Source of the DNA: Centroberyx gerrardi | Lineage: Eukaryota > Chordata > Actinopteri > Beryciformes > Berycidae | Assembly: GCF_048128805.1 (NCBI RefSeq) | Contig: NC_135998.1 | Span: forward strand, 10,428,656-10,492,655 | DNA length: 64,000 bases | Reading direction: 5' to 3' | Part shown: in pieces, positions 39,101-45,100 of the stretch | Layout: each line of letters begins with the position of its first letter | Numbering within the stretch: position 1 is the stretch's first letter | The notes under the pieces: generated by a model | Seen by the model: only the letters and a program-made list of their open reading frames with translations | Database searches by the model: none | Told to the model about the DNA's origin: nothing | Program-made: the position numbers and the translations under genes

Positions 39101-42100
39101 TGTCCCCTTATGTTTATGGTGCAGGAAGGACGGCGCGGCCACACAGGACTTGCTCTCACTCTGGTTCTCTCTTTATTCTGGTACAAAAATCAGCAACACA
39201 CACAATCGTCATCAACGGTGTGTTATGCAACTGCAAGCATTAAGATCTCCAGCTTGGAAGTATTTTCTTTTTTTACAAAAGACTAATATAAAATACATTT
39301 TTCTATACATTCTAGTATAAAACAAACATGTGATCGTATCGTGGTAATATTATGTATGATTTTCTATAGAGCACCTAAACAATAAGAGCTATTTTCTTTT
39401 ACATTCACAATAAAAATCCTAAAACATTCTAAATAAACATTTTGTCCATAGACAACAAATGGAACATCATTCTGAGTCCTATATAGTGCAACATGTTATT
39501 GCTGTTGTACAAAAACCTCGTATCAATATTTTAGGAATTAAGAAAAATAAGTTTACTTTTATACTGTTGACCATATACTTCTAAAATTCTACAATGGGCT
39601 ATAAATGGGATATGAAACACTATTAGCCCATGAAAGACAACAAAAGCCTTCATTTCACACAAAACACAATAAATCCTAAAGCTGGAATTACGAGGTTTTC
39701 ATGCAACGACAATATGTGAAACCCACATTTAACAAAGCCTACCTGGTACAAAAATCAGCAACACACACAATCGTCATCAACGGTGTGTTATGCAACTGCA
39801 AGCATTAAGATCTGTATAACAAAGAGTAGAAAAATTAATCTAAAATAATTACTAAACATTACGGCCGGGAGCAAGCCAGCAAGTGCATGGCTAGCTAACT
39901 AGCATTAGCTCAACATGCAACCAAAAGTGCTACTCGTGGATAAAGTTACCATTCTTGCACATAAATGTCTGTAACTTTCCAATCACATGCTAGTAGTGCT
40001 TACAGTCAAAATACATGCTACTGAAGGTTGCAAAAACAATTTTAAAGCATTAAACATAGAAATATTGGTTGCAACATTGCTCACGTGTACCCACCTCTAG
40101 CTTGGAAGTATTTTCTTTGCTGAGGCACGTACGGTGCGCGAGAAGGAAGGAATCTATGCAGTTGCGCTTTTAACCCACCAGGTGGCTCTAAAACTAGCGT
40201 ATACATATGTAAGAGAAGCATATCAATTTTGTAGAAATTCATAATAGAGGTTATTTCTAACTCTGTTACACATGCACACATGTACACACACACACACACA
40301 CACACACACACACACACACACACCCAAAACAACTCAATCGATCATTCTTCTGTGTCCCTCTTTGTGGTCTCAGTCCCTCTGACCAGACCTGTCTCCTTAC
40401 TCTACAGCACTTTTCACACACTGCTTAGAGTAACTCCACACTAAAACACTTTTTTTTAGGTTGTAAACTGGTATTTAGTACTATATAGTCGTGAAATACA
40501 ACAATGCTGGTCATATTGTCATATTTATCTCACTAAACCTGGCTCAGTTTGCCCTAAATGAGCAGCCAGAGGTCATTTGGAGATGCACCCATTATTCAAG
40601 GAAAATTCACATGCACATGCCCACGAACACTCCACCATGTTCCTTTTCTCACCAATCCAGCCCAACTCCAAACCCCTGTCCTGCCCCCCGCTCTTCCCAC
40701 CCACTTCCTTGCATTTTTTGAAATCATGCAGTAGGTGCAGAGAAGCTCAATGGGTGCATTTGCCTTAATGGGTTAAATTCCCAACTCATACCAAGAAGAT
40801 TTCGGTAACGCTTTATTTTACAGCCCGCTAATTACAGGGTAACTAGTTTGTAATTATGGGGTAGTAATAAAATAACAATGCTGTAGTTACAGGGTAACAA
40901 AACAAGAAGTCCGGAAATTAAGTGGTAACAATTTTGTAATTATGAGAGATTTATGTGGTAGTTATGGTGCAACTATTTTTGTAATTACTGCATACTTAAA
41001 AAATAATTACAGGGTACGATAACGTAATTAGGCGGGACAAAACAAATGTTATCGGTGCTTGTTCCCTGTAGCTATGGAGTAAGTATTTAGACCCTAAATT
41101 GTTTTATAGAAGGATTGTTTTTTATTTTACATTTTATATTATAAAATTGACATATTTGATATTTAATCTCAACATACTGTATATTACATTCAATAAAGCT
41201 GTTGTATGTACAATTAAGTCTGTTACTGTGTGTTGAAGTTCCATATTTTTTGTTTATGCTATATTGTTATAGAAATGTCACCAAACAGCTGGTCTAGAGT
41301 CTCCTCTCTTAACATTGATTACCAGATGGACATATGTGACTTTCTGTTAAACTATATTTACTGTGGGGCATGTGTTTTTTTGGGGGGGGGGGTTTTCACA
41401 GAAAACAAGTGATATTTTAAAAGCAAAATGGACTCTCAGTGAAAAAACAGCCACATTTAGAATAAATAGTGATTGTATTGTTAGTAATAGAGGTACAGAA
41501 ATTGTTAATGGCCAACATATATTTACTAATTCCATTACACTTTCACTGCTTTAGGCTACAGGTTACCCATAACTGCAGGAATAAAGGTGTGTTTTGAAGA
41601 AATGCGCAAAGACACTTTAACAGTAGTGTGCAAATAAATGTATTCAAATAAAATGATTCAGTTGTTCACTTCTGTAAAGTGTATAGGAAGATGACAGGAG
41701 TTCAGAAGTGGACTGCAGGTGAGAGGGCAGTCAAGCAGGGCTTTGGCTCATCTCCTTCTGTTTAGCAGGTCTGTTGGAGTGGCGTCTCTGCTGTTGTAGC
41801 CATGTTGTCAGCAGATTTCTTGTTCTTCCCCTGGAATATGCGGGATAGCCAAGAAAAGAAGCCACGCTTCTTCTTCTTTGGTTTTGTTGACAGACTGTCT
41901 TTGGCACTGGAACTCTGAGGTCCTGTAGGTTTGACCAGCTGGACGGGTGGAAATGTCTTTTCCAGGGTCAGACAGTACAGATCCTTGGTGTCCTTTACAG
42001 TTTCAACCACAAGGCTTGGTGGAGCTTTGACCTCAACCTGGATGTCTGGAGCCTGGGACTCCTGAAGCAGGTTGGTTGATCCCTCCTTAAGCAGGTGAAT

Positions 42101-45100
42101 CAGGGTGTCTTCAGCAGGAGAGACGGGGAGAGCCTCCTCTGAGATGGAGTTGTCAGGTCCAGCAGAGAGGACAGTGACTTCTGTTCCCTCACAACATTCA
42201 GGTTGATGCAGGACGGTGACAGAGCTTTCAGCAGTGTCCTCAGTCTGTGTACAGGAGTTGACCGTTTCCCTCTTGATGATAAAAGGACATTGTTTGTCCT
42301 CCTTCTCCAAGTCCTGGAGGAACAGCATCAGTTTAGAATCAGCTTTGACGATTGGCTCCCACTCATCAAGATGATCTTGAGTAGGGGCATGGCATGCAGC
42401 GCAGGCAGCCATAAATGTAGAACTCACTGATGAGGAATCATAGATGTGCTTTTCACCAAGTTCCTCCTCCTCCAGGAGGACTGAGAGGAACTGCATCAGG
42501 TGAGAATCAGTGCTGCTGGCAACAGGTTCCCATTTGTCAAGTTGGTCCAGAGTTGGCCCATATTGTGGGGAGCAGTCAACTACAAATCTAGAGAGATGTG
42601 ATGAAGCGTAGAGGAGCTCTTCACCAAATCCCTCCTTCTCCAAGTCAAAGTGTGATTTGACCAGTGGCTCCCACTCATCCAGGCAGCCCAGAGTAGATCC
42701 ACAGGGTGAGCAGCAGTCAGCCACAAATCCAGATGTGTCACATGGAGGGGCATAGAGGTATCTCTTTCCAGCTGCCTCCATGTGGTAGTCATCGTCAAAA
42801 CCATTGGGTGAGTTCTGAAGCAGCCTCAATCTCTGAGCTGGGTGGATGGATGCTCCAGCATTACCAAACTCTGTGTCTTCGGTCATGAGAGGAGACTCTT
42901 TCTCTGTGGGAGGAAGGTCTCCTTTGTCCAAATCCAAGAGAGGCTTGCATGCTGATGAAGCTGCACTGGCTATTGGTTCCCATATATTGAGGCTCTCAAA
43001 TCCAAAAGCAGGTTTGGAGCCGAGACCAACAGCAGACTGAGGTGAAAGATCACAGTCGAGCTCAGCAGTCACTCCAGAGAAACTAGAGGCTTCAGCATAA
43101 AGGTATTGCTCCCTGTTCAGGACTTTCGCAAACATGTAGTTGATGTTTTCATGGTGATCGTCTTTAAGGGCATTGAGTTGAGCGACCATTTGCATGAATG
43201 CTTAAAGAAATGCAATGGCAACATCTTAATAATCAAATAACCATGAGGCCACCTGATGTAGCTCCATTCAAGGTCAACATGCTTCATCATAGCTTCATCT
43301 TATGCCTTTCATTATAGTTTTGTTTCAACAACAAATCTAACTGTGAATTTACAATGTAAATCAAACTAAGGAAGAACTGGACACAAATGCAAATCCTTCA
43401 ACACAAACAAGTTGTCTATCCTGACTGTCTCGTGTTTGTCTGTTCAGCAAAATCATCTGTACTAATCTAATTTCTGTTAAATAATAAAATTATAAATACA
43501 TGTGGCTTACCAAGATGGAAATCACTCTCCATGTTTTCCTTTCTAAAAGGTACATATTGTTGATGTTTCTCCAAATGAATGCAACGTGAGTTTTCTGTCT
43601 CAATGTGCAGGTGAACAGCGATCAGAGATGAAACTGTGAGTCTGTGTCTGTGTTCAGGTCAATCGCTCCTTTATGACACTGACATTCTAAATTCTATGAA
43701 CTCTGCTGCATTCTGTCCAGCTGTATTATGATTCATCAGATGAAGCTCAGGCCCCAGTAAACCTTAATGACAGAGATGTCCCACTTCGTACATGGTTTAT
43801 AAACTACACATGATTATAAAAAAAACATTACTGAATATTTGGAATTTGTATTAAGATACCATATTTTTTATGTGGAAAACATCTATTTAATTGCTAATTC
43901 CTATTGCACTTTCACTGTTTTAAGCCACAAGTTAGCTCACTCTAATCTTACTACTACCTACTACTATTACTACTATATATTACTGTTACCTATTACTACC
44001 TACTATCATATCTGAGGGGATACTTTAGGAAAATAAAAAGAAAAGTTATTCATCTTCAATTCAGCTTTTCAGGTGTAGAATTTCTTTTTTCCAGAACAAC
44101 CTGTGCATGGGTAGCACTTTTCCAGTGCATGAACCTTTAAGCACTGATAACATTTGTTTTGTCCCCCCTAATTACGTTATTGTGCTTGCTTAAACCCTTT
44201 TGCTCTTTGGGGAGCAAAGGTCATTCATGAACTTTTTCCAGCTGGTTCGGTGTTGGGCGGACTTCTCTGCTTCCTTCCAGGACGTTCCTAATTCCTTGAG
44301 TTCTGACTCCACAGACCTTCTCCAGCTGTTCCTCGGTCTTCCTGGCTTTCTTTTCAGATTAAGGCCTGTCTGGTCATATTGTAAGGTGGTTTCCTCAGGG
44401 TATGCCCAATCCAGCCCTATTTCCTGCGTTTGATTTGGGTTTCAATTGGTTCTTGTTTTGTGATTTGCCAGAGCTCTTCGTTGGTTATTGTGTTTGGCCA
44501 GTAGATTCCCAGGATGTGTCGTAAGCATCTGTTTATGAAGGTTTGGAGTTTATTACTTGTTGCTTTTGTGGTTCTCCATGTTTCTGCCCCGTAAAATAAA
44601 ACTGATTTGACATTTGAAATTACGTTATTGTACCCTGTAATTATTTTATAAGTATGCAGTAATTACAAAAACAGTTACACCATAACTACCTTATAAATCT
44701 CTCATAATTACAAAATTGTTACCCCTTGATTCCCGGACTTCTTGTTTTGTTACCCTGTAACTACAGCATTGTTATTTTATTAGTACCCCATAATTACAAA
44801 CTTACACTGTAATTAGCGGACTGTAAAATAAAGCGTTACCAAGATTTCTACTGAATGAAGTTTTAATTCTTAGCTGAAGTTTTTCTTATTAAACCATGAC
44901 AAAAGCCTTTCCCAAACCTTAACCAAAGTTGTTTTAGTTGACTAAACCTAACCCAAACCATAACCCCCCCCCCCCTCCCTGAGCCCTAACCCCGACCCCC
45001 AGCCCAGGTTGTTTTTCTGCTGACCTGTAGAGCGTACGGGGCCTTGAGGTCGACCTGCACAGGGATCCACTCCCCGGGAGTCACGGTCCAGTCGCTCTGG

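Follow-up and report, generated by a model that had tools for sequence, protein, structure and literature searches.

How an apparently complete protein-coding gene came to lie between the two ends of a DNA transposon is the question raised by a stretch of 64,000 nucleotides from the genome of the beryciform fish Centroberyx gerrardi (assembly GCF_048128805.1, contig NC_135998.1, positions 10,428,656 to 10,492,655 of the forward strand). This whole stretch is called the window below, and all coordinates follow its own numbering. One element bounded by terminal inverted repeats (TIRs) occupies positions 40804–44840, and inside it a two-exon gene with a product of 486 residues is predicted on the minus strand. 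The reading that we favour, and to which we give about an even chance, is that a non-autonomous TIR transposon with Merlin-like ends acquired this complete gene at the DNA level and carried it as cargo.

Ends and arms of the element

Inverted repeats of about 257 bp, together with a perfect 8-bp duplication, had been reported to enclose 40804–44840 in a first-pass annotation of this DNA, and both were confirmed on the sequence. The target-site duplication (TSD), AAGATTTC, lies at 40796–40803 on the left and at 44841–44848 on the right, and its two copies match perfectly. Both ends of the element, read inward, give GGTAACGCTTTATTTTACAG, and both carry GGTAACGC with the terminal GG; when up to three mismatches were allowed, this end motif occurred at only two places in the 64 kb, against a chance expectation of 0.02. 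The left TIR (40804–41060, plus strand, 257 bp) consists in part of short sub-repeats, for example TAATTACAGGGTAA. The right TIR as a whole spans 44139–44840 and is interrupted by an insertion of 434 bp, a split that had been overlooked in an otherwise good description of the anatomy. Its inner part (44139–44183, minus strand) matches the left arm at 42 of 45 bp, with three mismatches, and its outer part (44618–44840, minus strand) does so at 211 of 223 aligned positions, with 12 mismatches and one 3-bp gap. A stretch of 14 bp of the left arm is matched by both parts, and the sequence enclosed between the arms (41061–44138) measures 3078 bp.

The insertion within the right arm is a fragment resembling a long interspersed nuclear element (LINE), located at 44184–44617 on the minus strand and bounded by the 14-bp duplication AATTACGTTATTGT, the copies of which lie at 44170–44183 and 44618–44631. 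From the look of the peptide, we take its minus-strand frames to resemble the C-terminal end of a LINE protein. A Pfam search with this fragment returned DUF6451 alone (E 0.12), and a poly-A tail was not evident in it.

The arms can be regarded as the two ends of one element because no partners were found at their inner ends and AAGATTTC is absent there. When an inverted partner for the outer 30 bp was sought near the inner end of the same arm, the best scores were 17 and 16, whereas the true pair scored 55. Nor does a copy of AAGATTTC lie beside the inner arm ends; the further copies in the window start at 2945 and 38286 on the plus strand and lie at 23087, 26408 and 52367 on the minus strand. 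The view that this is one TIR element, and not two solo miniature inverted-repeat transposable elements (MITEs), stood up to this comparison, and the arrangement that had been named as its refutation, with each repeat forming a complete separate MITE with its own duplication, was looked for and not found.

The gene between the arms and its lack of relatives

Translation of the predicted gene would begin at the ATG at 43532, in the good start context AACATGG, and the coding part of exon 1 comprises 22 nt (43532–43511, minus strand). The following intron of 310 bp (43510–43201, minus strand; GTAAGC...TTTAAG, GT-AG type, GC content 33%), which is a prediction from the splice signals, joins the exons in frame, and exon 2 (43200–41762, minus strand) closes with the stop codon TAA. 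Polyadenylation hexamers were scanned over 41061–41761, where a possible AATAAA signal is located 636 bp past the stop codon (41121–41126, minus strand) and an ATTAAA lies nearer to it (41167–41162), each of them being a hexamer match only.

The coding nature of this frame appears well supported by its sequence statistics. Exon 2 remains open for 479 codons, a length that was reached in 0 of 5000 simulations using first-order Markov sequences modelled on exon 2 itself (median 97, maximum 243). Its period-3 signal was 11.4, compared with 20.9 for a control stretch of the neighbouring apba1-like exon, and its GC contents at the first, second and third codon positions were 0.57, 0.41 and 0.50, compared with 0.33 in the intron and 0.34–0.35 in the flanks inside the element. 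The predicted protein is acidic over residues 1–440 (isoelectric point 4.4) and basic over its last 46 residues (isoelectric point 10.3), and it contains about four diverged repeats of 47–66 residues arranged around L-x-x-W-E-P, the first repeat reading L-x-I-W-E-P. After these internal repeats had been chosen and aligned by hand, nonsynonymous divergence (dN, 0.39–0.41) was found to be lower than synonymous divergence (dS, 0.82–2.5) in four of the six pairs; in the other two pairs, which had dN values of 0.52 and 0.64, no dS value could be calculated. This pattern points to purifying selection sometime in the history of the repeats and is silent on the present. The earlier description of a gene inside the element, with an unbroken reading frame and a credible intron, was borne out, and the frame is not that of a recognisable transposase.

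Additionally, the gene is flanked inside the element by two diverged copies of a direct repeat some 90 bp long, both in the same orientation, one copy at 41481–41565 (core 41514–41565) and the other at 43845–43934 (core 43878–43934), both on the plus strand. The cores scored 58 against a best value of 30 in 200 shuffles, and the whole stretch, under looser scoring, reached 35 against 25. This gene-flanking repeat may be a scar left when the gene was captured, or one left by an ancestral tandem array.

The predicted cargo gene is an orphan at the sensitivity of the search applied here. No Pfam family was found in the cargo protein at E values up to 10, and the PDB held no credible relative of the whole protein, a single match being returned at E 1. 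Comparison with 5.8 billion proteins gave nothing at E 10 among the 7992 candidates scored, this search using a length filter and no more than 100 exact words of five residues, which a fast-evolving or much longer relative could escape; residues 135–330 of the exon-2 frame, compared with the same database, likewise gave nothing at E 10 among 276 candidates scored. The frame of the apba1-like exon (61338–63332), used as a control, retrieved 169 proteins from this database at E up to 0.001, and fish can thus be considered well represented in it; the named proteins among the 120 matches listed were those of fish, and the best one listed was a Diretmus argenteus protein with 71% identity. No second copy of the gene was detected in the 64-kb window.

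A transposase hidden in the cargo was considered and was not supported: the cargo protein has no Pfam family and does not look like a transposase. In ten of the 19 other stop-to-stop frames of at least 60 residues in the element, Pfam gave no match below E 0.05 (best 0.057). When the four internal repeats were combined into a profile, its one match in the PDB was complement receptor 1 (E 2.5e-4, 22 profile positions), with 0 stretches passing on their own, and this match was judged not meaningful. Neither the cargo protein nor the inner-TIR pattern had a match in viral contigs, a collection that does not consist of fish genomes and in which a miss says little. The matches to the end motif that were found elsewhere, one of 18 bp in a viral contig and two of 20 bp in bacterial records, were attributed to chance; alignment to the whole element showed similarity at each of these three loci over those 18–20 bp alone, at E up to 0.01. 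A literature search with the letters of the end motif gave nothing, and no report of this element was seen in the literature searched, which is no proof of absence. Finally, no Rfam family reached its gathering score in the window.

Merlin-like ends and the origin of the insert

The element had been called hAT-like in the first-pass annotation, and its 8-bp TSD is indeed shared with hAT; P and Zisupton are further superfamilies with 8-bp duplications. Among animal Pack-TIRs, defined as non-transposon sequences of 100–5000 bp between the two TIRs of one element, hAT is also the commonest class a priori, because 208 of 370 were counted as such in the passages cited from the survey of these structures (PMC8277862). 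However, the hAT TIRs are described as short, at 10–25 bp in the text cited (PMC3942097), and the 257-bp TIR found here exceeds that range approximately tenfold. Moreover, neither AAGATTTC nor its reverse complement fits the target preference given for Hermes (nTnnnnAn; PMC10368747) or the consensus given for Buster (nnnTAnnn; PMC3517528), although this is one site and those are preferences only. No Pfam match to a hAT transposase with a BED domain was found in the cargo protein or in the ten other frames scanned. Judged from its sequence, the element probably does not belong to hAT, and Merlin suits it better: the TIRs of 24–462 bp, the conserved terminal GG and the TSD of 8 or 9 bp stated for Merlin (PMC8101967) all agree with the terminal 5'-GG, the 257-bp TIR and the 8-bp TSD observed. 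At the same time, autonomous Merlin members carry the DDE_Tnp_IS1595 transposase, whereas Pfam detected no such domain in the cargo protein or in the same ten frames. To file the element solely as having Merlin-like ends would thus seem the better fit.

According to the favoured reading, a transposase encoded elsewhere would have recognised the GG-ended repeats, and a genomic copy of the gene, with its intron and perhaps its promoter, would have entered the element via template switching or gap repair. The whole unit would then have jumped into the intron of a MAM-domain gene in which it very probably lies (see below), cutting a staggered 8-bp site; the LINE-like fragment would have landed later in the right repeat, and the frame would have stayed open since, perhaps under selection. 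A DNA-level copy is likelier than a copy of messenger RNA because the gene keeps its predicted intron. The TIRs, the TSD, the absence of inner ends, the coding statistics, the lack of a recognisable transposase and the agreement of the ends with Merlin all favour this course of events.

The divergence of the arms is about 2.7–3.3% per arm (12/223 and 3/45 mismatches), if they were identical at insertion, and they may have differed before it. In 2000 runs of neutral decay at 3% per site, the start codon was kept and the frame remained stop-free in 18%, and it was also free of frameshifts in 0.5%; the corresponding values were 31% and 3% at 2% decay and 56% and 18% at 1%, the frameshift figures assuming 0.1 indels per substitution. 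Under these assumptions, the simulation favours either selection or a younger gene and demonstrates neither.

Several points weigh against cargo transposition. A single copy was seen, within the 64-kb window; no parental gene was found in the window or in the protein search, and its capture from the host is what we infer. The structure of the gene is itself a prediction from sequence, it is only the ends that speak for Merlin, and the neutral-decay simulation, when indels are left out, is a weak test (18%, 31% and 56% at 3%, 2% and 1%). Moreover, the filling of a gap in situ would leave the same outer TSD as joint movement of the gene and the ends, and most single-copy animal Pack-TIRs are explained by gap filling in the account cited (PMC8277862).

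In-situ gap filling is a real possibility at this locus. An older element that already had these ends and this TSD would have suffered an internal double-strand break, the repair of which copied the gene in, and the gene itself would never have jumped. This process, held in that survey to be the main route for single-copy cases in animals (PMC8277862), needs no transposition and explains the outer TSD equally well. The earlier argument from the shared duplication therefore retains its force in ruling out two solo MITEs but does not prove joint movement, of which gap filling leaves the same mark. On the other hand, the gap-filling model, as presented in the cited text, is biased to nearby sources, whereas the window contains no second copy of the gene, and the fill would have to be 3.1 kb long with a whole gene in it. 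Transposition of the gene and the ends as a unit is plausible, and we prefer it only moderately over filling in situ, because no nearby source lies in the window and the insert is a whole gene.

It is unlikely, in our estimate, that the gene was never captured from a host and has belonged to the transposon family all along as an accessory gene, encoding a second protein of the autonomous element or a selfish passenger, in an element whose transposase has since been lost. Such an origin would agree with the failure to find a relative of the cargo in a database with good representation of fish proteins, and with the intron signals, start context and polyadenylation hexamers that the gene has of its own inside the ends. 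However, the protein has no conserved domain in Pfam, and we know of no comparable accessory protein in Merlin or hAT elements, no search aimed at one having been made. It is quite improbable that the reading frame arose by chance or is a non-functional relic and no gene at all: the cargo protein has no relatives in the protein, Pfam and PDB searches made, and the structure model of exon 2, folded alone as a single sequence, was uninformative (mean predicted local distance difference test score, pLDDT, 34.4), but the frame length, periodicity, GC contrast and substitution pattern of the internal repeats all stand against such an origin. The chance flanking of a host gene nested in the intron by two independent MITEs, which are numerous in fish, is hardly credible and was dropped, being contradicted by the one perfect 8-bp duplication, which is confined to the outer ends, and by arms whose inner ends neither complement the outer ones nor have such a duplication beside them.

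Genomic setting and comparison with known systems

To the right of the element, three minus-strand frames (44986–45393, 45978–46385 and 48199–48666) contain MAM domains according to Pfam, and the domain nearest to the element lacks a complete C-terminal end. On the left side, stretches resembling the C-terminal ends of MAM domains were noted by motif scan and by eye near 30940, 27955 and 24320; these are three of five motif matches that were so interpreted, and they are motif calls with no Pfam test. Since MAM domains lie on one side and MAM-like ends on the other, the element very probably lies within an intron of such a gene, called mamdc2 in the first-pass annotation, and its cargo is oriented the same way as that gene.

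Also in this intron is a Gypsy-type retroelement (31069–40037), about 0.8 kb from the TIR element. Its direct repeats are near-identical, with three blocks of 99% each between 31069–32048 and 39061–40037, its pol frame (33170–36835, minus strand) runs uninterrupted through reverse transcriptase, RNase H and integrase, and it looks young. Elsewhere in the window, plus-strand frames with Annexin (10021–10362) and Cation_efflux (18020–20448) domains are probably exons of two more host genes, and purine/pyrimidine-rich simple repeats at 53176–53675 produce long open frames on both strands that are probably spurious.

It is rather doubtful, though conceivable, that some family of vertebrate DNA transposons regularly has as its cargo an intact, lineage-restricted gene kept by selection and is spreading it through the genome as a dispersed gene family. 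If true, such a spreading family would be an animal counterpart of the gene-bearing Pack-type elements, one in which it is the passenger that is conserved and not the transposase. A complete two-exon orphan gene within one pair of ends would be a tangible example, from a vertebrate, of how a DNA transposon might give rise to a new gene and disperse it, and it also bears on the origin of orphan genes.

Transduplication was regarded as unknown in animals by the authors of a worm case published in 2008, before that case (PMC2572040). The statement in the first-pass annotation that gene-bearing elements are uncommon in vertebrates has to be tempered, as 370 Pack-TIRs were counted in 100 animal genomes, eight of them in zebrafish, according to the cited part of the later survey (PMC8277862). 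The 3078 bp between matching arms place the present element within the size range of these structures. As described there, gene capture by animal TIR elements yields mostly fragments, and the surveyed Pack-TIRs, which were chosen for an identifiable parent, are fragmented, whereas the element examined here contains a complete frame. The closest likeness is to Ssk-FB4 of Drosophila melanogaster (Tan et al. 2021, PMC8277862), which, in the text cited, is also non-autonomous, has long TIRs and carries a nearly complete protein-coding gene. The two differ in that the TIRs of FB4 measure about 700 bp and its TSD 9–10 bp, compared with 257 bp and 8 bp in the fish element, and in that FB4 is multicopy with a known parent gene, whereas one copy of the fish element was seen in the 64-kb window. 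The element of C. gerrardi is, in this comparison, a variant of something already known from animals, with a whole gene as its insert.

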